This document shows positions 51,421-58,870 of a stretch of 64,000 nt of DNA, in pieces (within the stretch, counting starts at the first letter, position 1; the number at the start of each line of letters is the position of its first letter). Under the pieces are notes generated by a model, which had not been told where the DNA came from, ran no database searches, and saw only the letters and a program-made list of their open reading frames with translations. The position numbers and the translations under genes were made by a program. The DNA is from Duganella sp. BuS-21 (GTDB lineage Bacteria; Pseudomonadota; Gammaproteobacteria; Burkholderiales; Burkholderiaceae_D), in assembly GCA_041874725.1 (NCBI GenBank), contig CP097466.1:992001-1056000 (forward strand), read 5' to 3'.

Positions 51421-52593
51421 ATGACGATTGCTTCCTTCCTCGCCCGCCAGCGGCGTGTCCTGGTGTTGTGCGCCGCTACGCTGGCGCTGCACTATGCCGC
51501 CATCGACTGGGTAGGAGGGCGCTTGAGCGCGCAGACGCATCGCGCTTCCGAGCTGCCGCCGTCGCTGATGAGCGCCCAGTTACGGCTGGCGTTGCCCAAG
51601 CGGGTCGAGAGCAAGGCGGTGGAGGAGGTGCAGCCGCTGGCCGCCGCGCCGCGCCGGCCGGCCGCCCGCCGCAAGCCGCAGTCGGTGCTGGAGCCGGTGG
51701 CCGCAAGGCCGGCAGCTATCGTGGCGACGGCGACGGCGGCTGGCGGTGCAGGCGATCCGTCCGTGGTGGACCAGGTGGCGTCGGAAGTCGGCGCAGCGCT
51801 GAACCAGGTGCAGCAGGCCGGGGCCCAGCAGGCGCAAACCGGCACGCCGCCACCGGCGATGGCGCAGGGCGAAACGCCGGCCGTGGCCGCGCCGGAGGCG
51901 GCGCCGCGCCAGGCCGGGCGCCGCTACAAGGTCAGCCTGCCGCCATCGGCCACCTTCGACATGACGGTCGACCGGGTCGACGCCGACGGCACCAAATGGA
52001 CGGGTGCCGCGACCATGACGTGGCATACTGACGGCAGCCGCTACAAGGCTTCGGTGGAAGCAGGCGTGAGTCTGCTGGTCACGCGCATCAACCTGCTGGT
52101 GTTGCGCAGCGAGGGCGAGATCGACGACTACGGCATCGCCCCCGTCACCGTCACCGAAAAGCGTGCGCGCCGCCCGGAAACCGCGACCCATTTCAATCGC
52201 GACGCCGGCACCATCAGCTTCTCGTCGTCGGAGCGCAGCTACCCGTTGCTGATAGGCGCGCAGGACAAGGCCACGGTGCCGTTCCAGCTCGGCGGCATCG
52301 GCCGCGCCGATTTGAATCAGTTCGGCGGCGACATCGACATCCAGGTGGGCGAGGAAAAGGAAGCCACCATGTTCCGCTTCCAGCTGGTGGGCGAAGAAGA
52401 AATCGAGACCAAGACGGGCAAGCTGGTGACGTGGCACCTGAGCCGTCCGCCCAAGCCGGGCAGCTATTCGTCGAAACTGGACATCTGGCTGGCGCCGGGC
52501 ATGAACTGGTACCCGGTCCAGATCCGCAACACGGAGGCCAGCGGTGCGCTGACCACGCAGACTGTCTCCACTATTAAATTGACCGATAAATGA
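51421..52593 (+). CDS. DUF3108-domain envelope protein (long form)
   Basis: 390 residues with an N-terminal membrane segment or signal anchor (RRVLVLCAATLALHYAAIDW). A low-complexity Ala/Gln/Pro linker (about 70-160) leads to the DUF3108 domain (about 165-390): YKVSLPPSATFDMTVDRVDA, YKASVEAGVSLLVTRINLLV, DDYGIAPVTVTEKRARRPET and GMNWYPVQIRNTEASGALTT. The domain is beta-rich and periplasmic; its function is unknown. The next gene encodes a second DUF3108 protein and starts inside this gene's stop (ATGA). Confidence 0.88.
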   Translation: MTIASFLARQRRVLVLCAATLALHYAAIDWVGGRLSAQTHRASELPPSLMSAQLRLALPKRVESKAVEEVQPLAAAPRRPAARRKPQSVLEPVAARPAAIVATATAAGGAGDPSVVDQVASEVGAALNQVQQAGAQQAQTGTPPPAMAQGETPAVAAPEAAPRQAGRRYKVSLPPSATFDMTVDRVDADGTKWTGAATMTWHTDGSRYKASVEAGVSLLVTRINLLVLRSEGEIDDYGIAPVTVTEKRARRPETATHFNRDAGTISFSSSERSYPLLIGAQDKATVPFQLGGIGRADLNQFGGDIDIQVGEEKEATMFRFQLVGEEEIETKTGKLVTWHLSRPPKPGSYSSKLDIWLAPGMNWYPVQIRNTEASGALTTQTVSTIKLTDK

Positions 52594-53330
52594 AGAAGTT
52601 CACCACCCTATGCGCCGCCATGATGCTGGCCGCAACCGTTCAAGCTGCGGAAGCCGAGCATCCGAGCGTCAAGCGCTCGACCAATCCGCCGCCGTCGGCG
52701 GACCTGAGCTACAACCTGAAGGTCAAGCAAAGCGGCCTGGCGCTGAACGGCGTGGCGACCGTGCAGTGGCGTGCCGGCGACGGCAAGTATTCCATCGCCA
52801 CCGAAAGCCGTGCCGCCGTCTTCGGCAAGGTGGTGGAAAATCACAGCGAGGGCGGCGTGGACGAATACGGCCTGGCGCCGGTCACCTTCCACGAGAAGCG
52901 CATCCGCAAGGAACCCTACACCACCAGCTTCAAGCGCGATGCCAAGGCCATTGCGTTCACTGAAAGCGCCACCACTTATCCCATTCTGGGGGGAGAGCAG
53001 GACCGCAGCAGCGCGCAGTGGCAGCTGGCGTCGATGGCGCGCGCCGCGCCGGACAAGTTCAAGCCGGGCAGCGAATGGCAGTTGTTCGTGGCCGGCCGCA
53101 AGGACGCCGAGGTGTGGAGCTTCAAGGTAGTCAAGGGCGAGACGCTGCAGATCGCCGGCGCCGAGGTGAACGCAGTCCATCTGGTGAAGGCGCCGCCGCC
53201 CGATGCGCCGGGCCAGCAGGTCGATCTGTGGCTGGCGCCGTCGATGGACTGGTACCCGGTGCGGGTGCGCTTTAACGACGCCGATGGCGACTTCGTCGAC
53301 CAGACGCTGGAAAAGGTCGTGAAAAAGTAG
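52590..53330 (+). CDS. DUF3108-domain periplasmic protein (short form)
   Basis: 246 residues with a signal peptide (MKKFTTLCAAMMLAATVQA). It has the same domain as the upstream gene: LSYNLKVKQSGLALNGVATV, YSIATESRAAVFGKVVENHS, EYGLAPVTFHEKRIRKEPYT and SMDWYPVRVRFNDADGDFVD. The two are probably tandem paralogues acting in the periplasm. The stop is about 80 bp before the SMC operon. Function unknown. Confidence 0.9.
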   Translation: MKKFTTLCAAMMLAATVQAAEAEHPSVKRSTNPPPSADLSYNLKVKQSGLALNGVATVQWRAGDGKYSIATESRAAVFGKVVENHSEGGVDEYGLAPVTFHEKRIRKEPYTTSFKRDAKAIAFTESATTYPILGGEQDRSSAQWQLASMARAAPDKFKPGSEWQLFVAGRKDAEVWSFKVVKGETLQIAGAEVNAVHLVKAPPPDAPGQQVDLWLAPSMDWYPVRVRFNDADGDFVDQTLEKVVKK

Positions 53331-53403: not shown

Positions 53404-53433
53404 ATGGCAAAGAATGATCGAACCTATAATTAG
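53404..53433 (+). CDS. Possible nine-codon leader ORF
   Basis: The ATG at 53404 is 6 bp after a GGAG site and encodes MAKNDRTYN before a stop that lies inside the kleisin-like gene. The start of the latter (53414) is 16 bp from that ribosome site. The overlap may reflect translational coupling, or simply chance. Confidence 0.3.
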   Translation: MAKNDRTYN

Positions 53434-54772
53434 TGAAGCCGCACCGGACCCGCAGGTACAAGACAGCCTGCAGGCCCACTTCCAGCCGCACATATCCGCC
53501 GATGAAATCGAGCAGGTCTACCACCTGAAGCGCGCGCAGCCGCTGCTGCAGGTGTTTACGGCCCTGTTCCACGGCGGTTTCGACGGCGTGCTGGTCCGCC
53601 TGCTGGTGCTGCGCGAGCTGGCCGCCGATACGGCCGCCACCAGCTTCACCCGTAGCGACATCAACACCCGCCTCGGCTACCTGCTGCCCGAATCGCTGGA
53701 GACGGTGCTGATGCGCCTGCGCTCCAACCAGCTGCTGGCCTGGGACGCGCAGCAAGCCGTGTACCGCGTTACGCCGATGGCGCGCAACGTGCTGTCGGCC
53801 ATCGACGGCCTGCTGGCGCTGGGCAAGGAAGAAGACGGCGCCGACATGGGCTTCCTGCTGTCGCAGGTGGCCGGCGCCCAGGTGATGGGCGGCGTCACGG
53901 TCGACCAGCTGAACCACCTGCTGGGCCGCCTGGTGGAGCTGACCGAGGAATTCTCGGACGCCATCGCCTCCGGTTCCGAATTCCGCCTGCGCGCCTCGCA
54001 GGCCAAGTGGCACATGGCTTGCGACTGGGTCGAGAAGGGCTCGGAGATCCTGCGCGCCATCACCACCGACGAAAACGCCGACAGCGCCACCCACAAGGCG
54101 GCGCAGGCCATCGGCCGCGCGCAGTCGGCGCTGCTGAACATGCAGGGCATGTTCTCGCGCGCGCTCAACCAGATCGAGCGCCAGCGCGTGCACCTTGGCC
54201 AATCCGGCCTGTCCACCACCGACATCAAGCGCTGGCTGCTGGAGCACGACGACCTGGCCTCGCTGGCGGTGGACGCCATCGACCACCCGGTGGTCCCGCT
54301 GTTCATCACCCCCGCAGAAATGATCGACGTAGCAGAAACAGAATTAATGGCCGACCGCGCAAACACCATCGTCTCCAACGGCCTGCCCACCGGCACCGAC
54401 GCCCCGACCACCATCAGCGAAGGCCCCGCCATGCAGCAGGAGCTGGACGAGTGGCTGGCGCGCCTGTCCGACTTCGCCGCGCTGGGGAACTTCCCCAGCA
54501 TCGCCGACGAAGGGCCGAAACAGATCCAGGCGCACGAATCGCTGCTGCCGGCGAGTTTCGCCGTGGCCTCGTACCGCGCCTCGCTGCTGCCGCTGCTGGG
54601 CGACGCCGACGAAGCGCGCCTGCAAGGCGCCACCGCCGAACTGGCGCGCCTGCCGGTGACCTTCTCGCCGCAGGACGAAATGGTGCAGCTGCCCGATCTC
54701 GAAGTAGCCGCCATGTCCCTAGCCTCCCTCTCACTGTCTTTGAATCCGGAAGGCGACAAGTCTGATGAATGA
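53414..54772 (+). CDS. Kleisin-like subunit of an SMC complex (MksF/MukF/JetA type)
   Basis: 452 residues, near the size of MukF. An N-terminal winged-helix region (about 25-130: YHLKRAQPLLQVFTALFHGG, then SFTRSDINTRLGYLLPESLE, then TVLMRLRSNQLLAWDA) is followed by helical bundles (about 140-340), and then by a Ser/Thr- and acidic-rich segment with a short C-terminal part. This plan is that of the MukF/MksF kleisins. It is assigned mainly because the next two genes encode a KITE-like and an SMC-like protein. It should bridge the ATPase heads. The ribosome site is poor (see 53404). Confidence 0.75.
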   Translation: MIEPIISEAAPDPQVQDSLQAHFQPHISADEIEQVYHLKRAQPLLQVFTALFHGGFDGVLVRLLVLRELAADTAATSFTRSDINTRLGYLLPESLETVLMRLRSNQLLAWDAQQAVYRVTPMARNVLSAIDGLLALGKEEDGADMGFLLSQVAGAQVMGGVTVDQLNHLLGRLVELTEEFSDAIASGSEFRLRASQAKWHMACDWVEKGSEILRAITTDENADSATHKAAQAIGRAQSALLNMQGMFSRALNQIERQRVHLGQSGLSTTDIKRWLLEHDDLASLAVDAIDHPVVPLFITPAEMIDVAETELMADRANTIVSNGLPTGTDAPTTISEGPAMQQELDEWLARLSDFAALGNFPSIADEGPKQIQAHESLLPASFAVASYRASLLPLLGDADEARLQGATAELARLPVTFSPQDEMVQLPDLEVAAMSLASLSLSLNPEGDKSDE

Positions 54773-55532
54773 CGATTCCCAAATCCTGATCGCGCGCCTG
54801 CTGTCGCACCAGACCCTGCGCCGCGACGATAAACTGGTCAAGCGCGTGCTGTCGGACGAACAGTTCCGCACCGAAGTCGACGCCCGCCTGCTGGCCGTCG
54901 GCCTCAAGCTGCTCGACAACGTGTATGCCGATCACGTGACGCTGGCCCTGCACCGCGCCATCGAGCCGAAGATCTTCGGCGCCAAGGATATCTGGCAAAA
55001 CAATAACTTCGGCCTGTCGCGCGACGGCGTGGCCCTGCTGGTGGTGCTGTGGGCGCAGATCATCTTGCCCAAGCGCGAGCGCCAGGAGACCCACCAGCAC
55101 GCGGAGGACGACCAGAACGACATGTTCGGCGTCGACAAGCCGCTGCCGCGCGCGGAAGACACCTCGATCGGCATCGCCTACAAGGCGCTGCTGGCGGACT
55201 TCGGCGACAAGCTTGGCAAGAAGACCCGTCTCGACATGAACCTCGGCATCCTGTCCAAGCTGGGCTTCATCGAGCGCCGCGGCGACATCATCGTCGAAGG
55301 CCCGCTGCTGGACCTGCTGATGGATACCGACGTGCTGAAAGAGCGCATCGTCAACGGCGCGCTGGCCGACGTCTTCAAGCGCGCGCCGGCGCAGATCATC
55401 CCGGTGCCGCGCAGCGCGCCGCCGATCGCCGCCAACGACGAGCCGGAGGAAGAAATCCTGCCCGCCTTCGACGCGCCGCCGCCTGCACCGATCGACCTCC
55501 CAGAGGGCGACGAAACTCCAGCCAAGGACTAA
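54765..55532 (+). CDS. KITE-like subunit of an SMC complex (MksE/MukE/JetB type)
   Basis: 255 residues. An 8-bp overlap with the kleisin-like gene couples the two. The N-terminal winged-helix part (LLSHQTLRRDDKLVKRVLSD, then EQFRTEVDARLLAVGLKLLD, then DHVTLALHRAIEP) and the second (GKKTRLDMNLGILSKLGFIE, then RRGDIIVEGPLLDLLMDTD) resemble the tandem winged helices of MukE/MksE. The C-terminal 50 residues are Pro/Glu rich and likely disordered. It should bind the kleisin and modulate the ATPase. The assignment relies on context as well as pattern. Confidence 0.75.
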   Translation: MNDDSQILIARLLSHQTLRRDDKLVKRVLSDEQFRTEVDARLLAVGLKLLDNVYADHVTLALHRAIEPKIFGAKDIWQNNNFGLSRDGVALLVVLWAQIILPKRERQETHQHAEDDQNDMFGVDKPLPRAEDTSIGIAYKALLADFGDKLGKKTRLDMNLGILSKLGFIERRGDIIVEGPLLDLLMDTDVLKERIVNGALADVFKRAPAQIIPVPRSAPPIAANDEPEEEILPAFDAPPPAPIDLPEGDETPAKD

Positions 55533-55535
55533 GCC

Positions 55536-58370
55536 ATGTTTCACATCAAATCGCTAGAACTGGTCCACTGGGATTACTGGCAACGCATCAAGAACATTCC
55601 GCTGGACGCCAAGATCATCACCATCGCGGGCCAGAACGGCTCCGGCAAGACCACCTTGCTGGACGCCTTGCGCACGCTGTTCGGCCTCGATTGCTCGATG
55701 GGCCGCACGTATAAACACTACGCGCGCCACAGCGGCCAGCAAACCGCCTGGCTGCGCGCCGTGGTGGACAACAAGCCGATGGGGCGCCAGTTGTCCAACC
55801 GGCCGTTCCGCAGCTCCGGCTTCTTCAGCGACGACGAAGTCACGTTGTTCTGCCAGATCCAGAAGAACGGCGGCGACTGGAAACGCCAGTACCTTATGCG
55901 TCCCGGTAACGTGCAGATCGAAGACATCGGCGAAGCCGGCAGCGATTGGCTCGGCGTGGAAAACTACCGCAAGCGCCTGGCCAACGCCGGCCTGTCGCCG
56001 GCCATGGCCAAGGTGCTGGCCCTGGAGCAGGGCGAGACCGACAAGCTGTGCGAATACGCGCCGCGCCAGTTGCTGGACCTGGTGTTCCAGGTCTTCGGCG
56101 ACAAGGAAGTGCTGGACGCCTACGACGAAGCCAAGCGCCACCAGCGCGACACCGAAACGGAGCTGAAGCGCTTCGAGACCGAGCTGGAAGCTTCCCGCAC
56201 CAACCTGGAAGGCCTGCGCCTGCGCGTGGCCAACTACCACCAGTGGGAAGACCTGAACAAGGAACGACGCAACCTGCAGGAAGAAGTGCTGCCGTCGCTG
56301 GAGTACCACGAGGCGCGCGAGAAGCACGCCAACCTGAGTCGCCAGCTGCGCGAAGCGCGCAAGCCGCTGATGCAGGCCGACGCCCAACTGGCCGACAAGC
56401 GCAATATGCTGGCGGCGCAGGCCAAGGCGCTGTCGGACGCGCAAAGCCACGAGACGGTGCTGGAGCAGGAATCGACCTCGCTGCAAACCCGCCTGACGCA
56501 CGTCAACGGCAAACTGAAGCCGCTGGAAAGCCTGCTGGAACAGAAAGCGCGCCTGGAAAAGCTGGCCTCGGACTCCGGTTCGGACCTGGCCGAAGTGGCC
56601 AAGACGCTGCAGGAAAAGGAAATCGAACTGGCGCGCCAGCGCACCGCGCGCGATGCGGTGGCGGCCAAGATCGCCGGCGAACTGTCGACCATCTCGGCGC
56701 TGCAGGGCAAGACCGCCATGCCGGAGCCGGAAGTGCAGCGCACCATGCGCCGCGCGCTGAACGACGCCGGCATCAGCCACGCCATGCTGTCCGATATCGT
56801 CGAAGTGACGGACCCGAAATGGCAGGGCGCGATCGAAGGCGTGCTGGGTGGCTATGCCTCCGTGGTGCTGCTGGATAAATCGTCCGACGCCGCAGCGGCC
56901 TACCGCCTGGCGGAGAAGGAACGCTATCGCCACTTCATCGTGCCGGACCTGGTGCATGCGCCGACGGTGCAAGACGACACGCTGATGTCGGTGGTGAAGT
57001 TCTCGGCCAAGGTGCCGGCATGGCTGGTGGAACAGCTGTCGCGCATCACCCGCGTGGACAGCGTCGACCAGGGCGCCAAGATGGGCAGCCACGAAGAGTG
57101 GATCACGCCGGAAGCCTACCACCGCGAACGTCGCGGCGGCCGCTCGCTGTTTGTGGAAGCCTCGCGCTACCGCTTCGGTTCCGCCGGCCGCACCCAGCGC
57201 ATGGAAGCGATCCAGAAATCGCTGCCGGCGCTGGAAGCGCAGGAAGACCAGCTGACGCTGATGGTGTCCAAGCTGGCCACCGAAATCAGTTCGCTGAAAA
57301 CCCGTCTGGCCGGCGTCGACGCCGCCAAGGAACTGGCGGCCCGCGCCGAGGAGTTCGACGAAGCGGCGCGCAACGCCGTGCCGCTGCGCGCCGAGCGCAC
57401 CGAAGTGGGCGCGCGCCTGGGCGAGCTGCAGAACCTGATCAAGACCGCCGTGGTCACGCGCACCCGCGCCGACACCACCTGGCAGAACGCCCGCTTCGCC
57501 CTGTCGGAAGCGGAAGCCGGCATGCGCCTGAACCACAAGCGTCAGCTGGAGCAGCGCAGCGATCACGCCAGGGCCTTGCTGGCCCTGCGCAAGAGCTGGC
57601 GTCACCTGCCGCAAGGCTGGCGTCGTCCCGCGCGCCGCGCCGCGCTGGTCAAGGAACACCAGAACGCGCACCAGGTCACGCTGCGCGTGCACAGCCTGGA
57701 AGCCAGCCTGGCGCGCAGCGACTGGGAACTGGACGCCACCGTGATCGACCAGTATCAGCGCCTGAACGACCAGCTGCACTCGCGCCAGTCGGAAACCGAG
57801 GAGCGCCGCTACCAGAACAACCGCGCCATCGAGGCCACCGGCAATGCGCGCGGCGCCTACATCGAGCGTCTGCGCTACACCATCAAGACCTACGCGGCCA
57901 ACATCAAGGAGCTGGGCCAGCTGGCCGGCATCGAGGTGCATGCCGACCCGGTCAAGCTGGAGAACGACGATGTGCAGCTGTCGCAGGCCGGCCTGCACGT
58001 GCGCTTCAAGTTCGACGGCAAAGGTGTGATCGGCATGAACGACGGCGAAGCGTCTGGCGGCCAGCAGGTGATGAAATCGCTGGTGCTGCTGATTGGCTTG
58101 CTGAAGTCGGAAGACGGTTCCGGCGGCTTCGTGTTCATCGACGAACCGTTTGCCCACCTGGATATCCGCAACATCCAGCTGGTCGGCGAGTTCCTGAAGA
58201 ACACCGACGCCCAGTACCTGATGACGACGCCGCTGACCCACAACACCGATGTCTACGATCCTTCGGAACTGACGCTCATCACGAGTAAAAAGAAGAAGGA
58301 CACTGAATGGGCGGCGCCGATCTTCGTGCTACAGCGGCGCAAGCCGGAAGCCGGGAAGGCCGCCGCTTAG
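55536..58370 (+). CDS. SMC-like ATPase (MksB/MukB/JetC type)
   Basis: 944 residues, similar in size to MksB and shorter than MukB (about 1480). Head halves lie at the two ends: Walker A GQNGSGKTTLLDAL at about 32-45, and C-terminal ABC signature ASGGQQVMKSLVLL at about 838 with Walker B and D-loop FVFIDEPFAHLD at about 866-877. Between them are two coiled-coil arms (about 190-410 and 560-800) and a hinge-like domain (about 415-550: VEVTDPKWQGAIEGVLGGYA). It starts 3 bp after the KITE-like gene. It should load on DNA and organise chromosomes, or defend against plasmids as Wadjet does. No JetD/MksG nuclease gene follows. Confidence 0.85.
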   Translation: MFHIKSLELVHWDYWQRIKNIPLDAKIITIAGQNGSGKTTLLDALRTLFGLDCSMGRTYKHYARHSGQQTAWLRAVVDNKPMGRQLSNRPFRSSGFFSDDEVTLFCQIQKNGGDWKRQYLMRPGNVQIEDIGEAGSDWLGVENYRKRLANAGLSPAMAKVLALEQGETDKLCEYAPRQLLDLVFQVFGDKEVLDAYDEAKRHQRDTETELKRFETELEASRTNLEGLRLRVANYHQWEDLNKERRNLQEEVLPSLEYHEAREKHANLSRQLREARKPLMQADAQLADKRNMLAAQAKALSDAQSHETVLEQESTSLQTRLTHVNGKLKPLESLLEQKARLEKLASDSGSDLAEVAKTLQEKEIELARQRTARDAVAAKIAGELSTISALQGKTAMPEPEVQRTMRRALNDAGISHAMLSDIVEVTDPKWQGAIEGVLGGYASVVLLDKSSDAAAAYRLAEKERYRHFIVPDLVHAPTVQDDTLMSVVKFSAKVPAWLVEQLSRITRVDSVDQGAKMGSHEEWITPEAYHRERRGGRSLFVEASRYRFGSAGRTQRMEAIQKSLPALEAQEDQLTLMVSKLATEISSLKTRLAGVDAAKELAARAEEFDEAARNAVPLRAERTEVGARLGELQNLIKTAVVTRTRADTTWQNARFALSEAEAGMRLNHKRQLEQRSDHARALLALRKSWRHLPQGWRRPARRAALVKEHQNAHQVTLRVHSLEASLARSDWELDATVIDQYQRLNDQLHSRQSETEERRYQNNRAIEATGNARGAYIERLRYTIKTYAANIKELGQLAGIEVHADPVKLENDDVQLSQAGLHVRFKFDGKGVIGMNDGEASGGQQVMKSLVLLIGLLKSEDGSGGFVFIDEPFAHLDIRNIQLVGEFLKNTDAQYLMTTPLTHNTDVYDPSELTLITSKKKKDTEWAAPIFVLQRRKPEAGKAAA

Positions 58371-58870
58371 GTTTGTAGCAGTTGATCCAGTTGTTGGGCA
58401 AGGAGGGTCGCGGTATCGCGGCCCTTTGCTTTTTGCACGGCCTCCACGTAGGGATTGCGCAGCTGGCGCAGCTCGTCCACCGAGGCGGCTTTTTCCACCT
58501 TCATTTGCAGCGGGAAGCCGCGCAGGCCCATGGTGCTTTTGATGGTTTTGTTATAGAAGTCGTACACCGAGCGGAATTGCTGCACCTGGTCCGCCTGCGG
58601 TGTTGGCGCCGGCACGGTGATTTCAGGCCCAGCTTCCTGTTCCGGCAGCGAAGCATAGCTGGCGGCCAGCAGGATATAACCCTGCTCCAGTAGCTCCTGC
58701 AAGGCGCTGGCTGTCAGGCCCAGTCCCGCCACATTGCGCAGCAGTTCCTCCTCGGCCCGATGGCCGTCCACCAACACCAGCAAGGCACGCAGACGCGACG
58801 CAAGCTGGAACTTGCGTGTCGCAATTTCCTCCCTGCCTTTGGCGGTCTTGTCGTAAATTGAGGTGTTCAT
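58367..58870 (-). CDS. Conserved hypothetical protein
   Basis: 167 residues starting MNTSIYDKTAKGREEIATRK, then LASRLRALLVLVDGHRAEEE. The N-terminal 90 residues are helical and look like a winged-helix or small helical domain; the C-terminal half (RSVYDFYNKTIKSTMGLRGF, then LRQLRNPYVEAVQKAKGRDT) is also helical. I do not recognise a named family. It is convergent with the SMC gene, the stops overlapping by 4 bp (TTAG at 58367-58370). It is not a TOPRIM nuclease, so it is not a JetD/MksG counterpart. Confidence 0.75.
   Translation of the reverse strand: MNTSIYDKTAKGREEIATRKFQLASRLRALLVLVDGHRAEEELLRNVAGLGLTASALQELLEQGYILLAASYASLPEQEAGPEITVPAPTPQADQVQQFRSVYDFYNKTIKSTMGLRGFPLQMKVEKAASVDELRQLRNPYVEAVQKAKGRDTATLLAQQLDQLLQT

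Follow-up and report, generated by a model that had tools for sequence, protein, structure and literature searches.

A compact SMC operon of Duganella sp. BuS-21 and its relation to nuclease-bearing Wadjet-group systems

A role in chromosome organisation has been published for MksBEF of Pseudomonas aeruginosa (PMC7485682), a three-gene structural maintenance of chromosomes (SMC) system. According to a review, this MksBEF, and perhaps MukBEF, may derive from the plasmid-defence system Wadjet by loss of JetD, and the relationships among Wadjet, MksBEF and MukBEF are there called not resolved (PMC10586767). A tree of the Wadjet group has been built from operons whose MksB exceeds 890 residues, and several of its members are without MksG/JetD (PMC7617805). 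We describe an operon of the same general kind, consisting of the genes K (kleisin-like), E (KITE-like) and S (SMC ATPase), in Duganella sp. BuS-21 (assembly GCA_041874725.1, contig CP097466.1). The stretch of DNA analysed, referred to as the window, comprises 64,000 nucleotides (positions 992,001 to 1,056,000 of the contig), and coordinates given without a locus name are positions in it.

Our preferred interpretation, to which we assign a probability of roughly 0.6, is that K-E-S is a former plasmid-cutting complex of the Wadjet group, whose nuclease would have been lost in the clade of the window and whose motor would have been kept for the chromosome. The first-pass annotation had left the choice between a chromosome-organising condensin and a defence core without its effector; the comparison points to the two in succession, first a defence core and then, its nuclease lost, a core gene. 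Nuclease-less members of the Wadjet group have already been published, and what appears new here is this clade, its nuclease-bearing relatives and the repeated losses proposed for them. Among the listed titles and opening parts of abstracts, no description of the window clade or of its nuclease losses was found; the operon list of PMC7617805 may include the clade.

The K-E-S operon and its predicted subunits

K-E-S is a tight operon of three genes with no adjoining nuclease gene, as had been noticed earlier from the DNA alone. All three genes are on the plus strand: K (53414..54772) encodes 452 residues and occupies the position of MukF/JetA, E (54765..55532) encodes 255 residues and occupies that of MukE/JetB, and S (55536..58370) encodes a short SMC ATPase of 944 residues. 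The open reading frames (ORFs) of K and E overlap by 8 bp and those of E and S are 3 bp apart, exactly as first described. The next gene (58367..58870, minus strand) is convergent with S, whose last 4 bp it shares, and lies at the place taken by a nuclease gene in some relatives. Its 167-residue product matches no Pfam, NCBIfam or PADLOC family above cut-off, and the 4 kb after S in the window has no significant similarity to the nuclease of those relatives (best E-value 5.3). Judged by sequence, it appears to bear no signs of a nuclease, in agreement with the first-pass view that it is not a TOPRIM protein.

The same arrangement recurs in relatives. We compiled 51 S loci: 39 full-length places from a search of the order, five picked from searches of the class and family, and seven named relatives. 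K and E are present upstream of S in 48 of them, the window included, always in the order K-E-S and on one strand; the remaining three have merely 56-408 bp of sequence upstream of S. The neighbourhood comparison thus upholds the layout first described, and adds that a nuclease gene, named D here, follows S in 11 of the 51 loci.

S is assigned to the SMC proteins by a Pfam SMC_N match (E-value 4.5e-13), which is present in all 20 S family members examined. The Walker A motif (GQNGSGKTTLLD, residues 32-43; 55629..55664, plus strand), the ABC signature motif (ASGGQQV, residues 839-845; 58050..58070, plus strand) and the Walker B motif with D-loop (GFVFIDEPFAHLD, residues 864-876; 58125..58163, plus strand) are retained at 51/51 loci, 40 of which are without D. 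The hinge region (residues 415-514; 56778..57077, plus strand) matches PF06470 marginally, with an E-value of 3.3e-4 and 21.5 bits, slightly below the cut-off of 22.5; SMC_hinge is matched in 4 of the 20 family members. With these qualifications, the third protein is the short, hinge-containing SMC-like ATPase that had been predicted. A family profile of S (A3) retrieved JetC as the top match in the PDB (E-value 1.7e-9). When profiles of the heads were compared, JetC scored highest for the N-terminal half of S, and MukB, followed by JetC, for the C-terminal half; this comparison favours JetC, since its profile held 15 rows and each of the other yardsticks was a single sequence. The PADLOC JetC models match S weakly, mostly within the coiled coil (best E-value 1.4e-21). 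An assignment of S to the Rad50/RecN-type ATPases was considered and rejected, given the marginal hinge match, the strict linkage to K and E, the weakest scores of RecN for both halves, and the rank of SbcC below JetC. The claim of short coiled-coil arms also holds, since S, with its 944 residues, is shorter than the JetC (1127 residues) and the canonical Smc (an open frame of 1185 residues) of the same genome. MksB proteins are described as typically having short coiled coils (PMC4255302).

Three observations concern the S sequences themselves. In G238 (G238:C1:759871-762498) the match to S ends at residue 881 and continues into an open frame of 2572 residues, probably by frameshift or assembly error. 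In one genome of the window's genus, part of the C-terminal region of S is present again (G953:C329:24656-25147; 88% identity), at a distance of about 3 kb from the full-length gene. An open frame of 895 residues runs antisense to S (55554-58241, minus strand) and has BLAST counterparts in most of the loci compared; it is probably a by-product of GC-rich codon use.

The structural models suggest K as a kleisin-like protein whose predicted fold is nearest to MukF, and E as a KITE-like protein whose predicted fold is nearest to JetB. The AlphaFold2 model of K has a predicted local distance difference test (pLDDT) score of 73.8, and its top Foldseek match in the PDB is MukF (9gm7_C, E-value 3.4e-3); a structural alignment to 7nz2_C1 covers residues 49-442. 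The model comprises an N-terminal winged-helix domain (residues 39-141; 53528..53836, plus strand), matched by MukF and by MarR-type winged helices, a helical middle region resembling the middle domain of MukF (residues 143-264; 53840..54205, plus strand) and a C-terminal helix-strand region (residues 337-442; 54422..54739, plus strand), which its modelled secondary structure makes a candidate for the winged helix that would bind the SMC cap. The top match of E is JetB (8as8_C, E-value 5e-4), and the sole well-modelled part is an N-terminal winged helix (residues 1-72; 54765..54980, plus strand). DUF4194, the JetB/MksE family, is matched weakly by 5 of 19 E family members (best E-value 5.1e-4).

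Searches with sequences and profiles are less favourable. As single sequences, K and E gave no NCBIfam or PADLOC match, none above cut-off in Pfam and nothing useful in the PDB, and PDB searches with their family profiles (A1 and A2) returned chance-like matches or a winged-helix regulator. The PADLOC JetA and JetB models do not match K or E in the window or in five nuclease-bearing relatives; as a control, the other Wadjet operon of the same genome is matched strongly. A weak PADLOC JukB match by K of two relatives (E-values 7.7e-5 and 0.0023) was taken as chance among helical proteins. Several further results weigh against our interpretation: hhalign comparison of K and E with JetA, MukF, ScpA, JetB and MukE was not significant (probability ≤3%), K has no Foldseek match at an E-value of 0.001 or better, MarR-like winged helices score close to MukF, the model of E is poor beyond residue 70, and the Foldseek template-modelling scores are low (0.18 for K and 0.26 for E). 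Since no profile-profile match is significant, the identity of K and E rests on the predicted folds (19 sequences). Comparison with MukF, MukE, MukB and JetC profiles, which the first-pass annotation had put forward as a check, therefore bears out S (SMC_N, with JetC and MukB best) and leaves K and E without significant matches, both assignments being suggested by the modelled structures. That the likeness is superficial, K and E being neither kleisin nor KITE, would suit the lack of any sequence-level match to K; we consider it hardly credible, as the best folds, MukF for K and JetB for E, were found without recourse to operon order, the K-E-S linkage is strict (48/48) and DUF4194 is matched within the E family.

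Nuclease D in relatives and its distribution

D encodes about 390-425 residues and lies directly 3' of S, in Polaromonas, Nitrosospira and others. It starts at most 73 bp after S; in G131 it runs off the contig and is split over two contigs. All five D proteins tested match the PADLOC JetD1 models (best E-values 7.6e-8 to 2.3e-22), and the JetD residues E-N, D..G and E-Q-E are kept in 13/13 aligned D proteins, as is the middle DxD in 12 of them, with DxH in the other. Because of these matches and residues, D appears to be a JetD/MksG-type TOPRIM nuclease. The D of G192 matches DUF2399 (3.8e-10) and, over the cut-off, JetD_C, and that of G095 matches DUF2399; three of the five proteins tested have no Pfam family above cut-off. 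Aligned by hhalign to a JetD profile of 15 rows, some of them over-long ORFs, D gave a weak probability of 2.7%, versus 96.6% to the single JetD of locus L158. That locus (L158:5256-12053) belongs to G046, where an ordinary Wadjet operon, its JetA of the DUF5716 type, occurs in addition to K-E-S-D.

D is inherited together with S: the two sets of distances agree with a Mantel r of 0.90 over 10 loci without G192 (p 1e-4) and of 0.82 over all 11 loci. As a JetD-type gene follows S in relatives and is co-inherited with it, K-E-S can be placed as a compact, divergent Wadjet-group system. With D, which carries the active-site residues of JetD, K-E-S-D likewise looks like a compact system of this group.

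The window clade was defined as the 46 genomes of the family whose S is at least 68% identical to that of the window, and 31 of these were searched for D. A D-type nuclease was found in none of the 31, anywhere in the genome. Over 70 genomes with K-E-S, the D profile found D in 10, always at S, and its single further match, a weak one, belonged to a normal Jet operon of G046. For nucleases of the D type, a location elsewhere in the genome is thus not supported by this search, which took in 31 of the 46 window-clade genomes and in many genomes scored no more than the best 26 candidates, and the JetD that does occur in the Duganella genome belongs to a complete Wadjet operon.

This second operon (L049, G000:C1:24811-31492) is a separate type I JetABCD, each subunit of which is matched by PADLOC with an E-value of 3e-95 or better; its JetD lies at G000:C1:30329-31492. 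The genome also has the canonical Smc and ScpA, and ScpA is found in 39 of 40 K-E-S genomes. MukF (PF03882) was found neither in this genome nor in any of 143 genomes searched. The window operon is therefore at least the third SMC system of its genome, and not the sole Wadjet-like one. The earlier description of a core lacking its JetD/MksG effector holds at the operon, and has to be read beside a complete JetABCD with its own JetD elsewhere in the genome. A nuclease could in principle be borrowed in trans from that operon. We regard this as very improbable: the JetD there belongs to a complete set of four genes, JetD_C occurs in only 10 of 40 K-E-S genomes, one of the matches (G192) being the adjoining D itself, and the searched genomes of the window clade gave no D-type nuclease of their own.

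A contrast within a single genus is seen in g6, a genus of the same family, where two of four genomes (G667 and G689) have D and two (G178 and G708) do not. After S of G178 (L031) there is a D-like stretch of 47 residues with 47% identity by tblastn (E-value 5.5e-9 against the stretch alone and 9.3e-7 among all; blastn gave none), and over roughly the next 1 kb no ORF exceeds 74 residues; the congener G689 has an open D. The stretch in G178 is likely a decayed nuclease gene, as read from one short match at the protein level.

On the S tree, D occurs on both sides of the midpoint root and requires at least six changes, four of which are forced by well-supported branches. Grouping the D-bearing rows as one clade is rejected by the approximately unbiased test (p-AU 9.9e-5, or 2.2e-5 when G192 is left unconstrained). 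The simplest account starts from an ancestral K-E-S-D that would have lost D repeatedly, its direction being a matter of inference. The alternative, an ancestral three-gene set to which JetD-type nucleases were added beside S on several occasions, draws on G192, whose D is very divergent (branch length 1.67) within an otherwise nuclease-less clade, so that at least one later gain is plausible there. As a general explanation it is quite unlikely, since D distances track S distances at the other 10 loci, D occupies one and the same position downstream of S on either side of the root, and G178 appears to retain a remnant after S. The very divergent JetD-like gene of G192 is at L157:6675-7904, beside S, and the clade around it is linked to obgE.

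The repeated-loss account can be carried further, although we hold this extension only tentatively and at somewhat less than even odds: a compact K-E-S-D Wadjet may have lost its nuclease repeatedly within one bacterial group, its motor becoming a housekeeping condensin several times. On the tree this would amount, with the same reservation, to about five losses and one regain, the motor becoming core in the genus of the window and linked to obgE in another clade.

Retention of the motor and its possible role

In the genus of the window, 73 of 74 genomes (that of the window included) carry full-length S, as do 50 of 116 genomes of the family (51 matched; G627 was dropped) and 39 of 250 genomes of the order, where 41 matched at an E-value of 0.001, G204 and G128 were dropped, and the 39 are complete or almost complete in length. 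Of 369 genomes drawn across the class, 104 matched, of which two, the Duganella genome and G613, have full-length S, the other matches being short P-loop or coiled-coil/hinge alignments; a phylum-wide draw of 249 gave full-length S in the same two genomes. A contig scan added at least seven loci of named relatives, including Massilia, Polaromonas, Acidovorax, Azoarcus and Nitrosospira among the matches listed. Among the best 120 protein matches, S is, where named, mostly annotated as ATP-binding protein, AAA family ATPase or chromosome segregation protein, K as hypothetical protein (with one DUF3375 and one DUF1631), and E as hypothetical protein (with several DUF4194).

K-E-S is under purifying selection, including where D is missing. 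Pairwise ratios of nonsynonymous to synonymous substitution (dN/dS) range from 0.01 to 0.43 where computable (15 pairs, 13 of them with both loci lacking D and two including a D-bearing locus), as estimated by the simple Nei-Gojobori method on GC-rich genes; saturation left four values without a ratio.

The genomic setting is also conserved at part of the K-E-S loci. In one large clade of 27 loci, 26 of them without D, ObgE is encoded upstream and in the same direction in 25, at a distance of up to 80 bp in 12 loci (L037, L038, L047, L164-L166, L169, L171-L173, L175 and L176) and of up to 3.8 kb in 13 more. None of the 24 loci outside that clade has ObgE nearby, some of them having little upstream sequence. 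Among other neighbours, proB follows in three loci (L041, L169 and L170), and proA precedes in four D-bearing loci (L036, L040, L083 and L161). In the window, two adjoining DUF3108 proteins are encoded upstream of K (51421-53330); the pair and a preceding phasin-sized ORF are kept near K-E-S in three other loci (G713, BJB404 and Massilia).

Among 50,697 phage records none matches S, and among plasmids two records alone do, both of them Variovorax megaplasmids (L187 and L188). In each, the alignment covers only part of S and breaks off next to an IS1071 transposase gene; in RA8 an open D-type gene follows. These searches do not support the operon as a mobile element.

The near-universal presence in the genus, the link to obgE, the intact motifs, the dN/dS values and the near absence of phage and plasmid matches fit housekeeping better than defence, and a motor so widely kept without its nuclease suggests a defence machine turned to housekeeping. 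The complex may instead still act in defence and restrict small circular DNA, either by compacting or silencing it, in the way that Smc5/6 acts on viral DNA, or by passing it to a general nuclease. Its kinship with nuclease-bearing relatives is clear, and the complete Wadjet elsewhere in the genome may reflect plasmid pressure; defence genes are, however, patchy, as with DUF3375-type JetA, which passes the cut-off in 17 of 120 genomes of the order (other JetA types are not in this count), unlike an S found in 73 of 74 genomes of a genus and linked to obgE elsewhere, and the phage and plasmid records speak against it as well. We consider continued defence unlikely.

In the interpretation we prefer, the ancestor would have been a four-gene K-E-S-D whose D was a TOPRIM nuclease of the JetD/MksG type. 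D would have been lost in the window clade and separately in other relatives, with the three-subunit motor kept. The heads of S would be bridged by K, with E bound on K, forming an ATP-driven, dimeric loop extruder, and the nuclease-less complex would fold the chromosome or help to segregate it beside Smc-ScpAB, in the manner of P. aeruginosa MksBEF. Complex formation, loop extrusion, the chromosomal role and the direction of loss are all inferred.

To the points raised for K and E, others on the same side can be added. The S tree was built quickly, its long branches join one another and its root is a midpoint, so the choice between loss and repeated gain of D is an argument from parsimony. 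A divergent nuclease elsewhere may also have escaped the search, given the rapid evolution of D and the scoring, in many genomes, of no more than the best 26 candidates. Finally, with S in 39 of 250 genomes of the order, it can be a core gene in some clades only.

Across the family, closely related loci differ in whether they have the nuclease, while the motor remains under purifying selection. If the interpretation is right, matched nuclease-plus and nuclease-minus pairs within single genera, such as G689 and G178, would be available for studying the switch from defence to chromosome, and the proposal that a defence machine becomes a condensin would become a testable case. The comparison also exposes a compact Wadjet-like lineage whose kleisin and KITE escape the PADLOC JetA and JetB models.

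Comparison with known SMC systems

The closest described system is Wadjet type I, JetABCD (MksBEFG), which has the same gene order of kleisin, KITE, SMC and, where present here, nuclease. JetC is the best PDB profile match of S and the best match of its N-terminal head, the predicted fold of E is nearest to JetB, and D of the relatives matches the PADLOC JetD1 models. Unlike Wadjet type I, the window and the 31 searched genomes of its clade have no nuclease, D being present in 11 of 51 family loci; the PADLOC JetA and JetB models miss K and E, in the nuclease-bearing relatives as well; and S has about 940 residues, compared with about 1120-1170 in JetC.

Smc-ScpAB shares with K-E-S the combination of SMC, kleisin and KITE subunits; unlike K-E-S, it is represented in the same genome by the separate canonical Smc and ScpA. 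MukBEF is approached by the predicted fold of K, nearest to MukF, by the lack of a nuclease and by the C-terminal head of S, which scores best against MukB. It differs in that MukB has 1486 residues, compared with 944 in S, and in that the genome has no PF03882 MukF. P. aeruginosa MksBEF, as described in the literature cited, likewise has three genes and no MksG and occurs beside Smc-ScpAB, a likeness in gene content.

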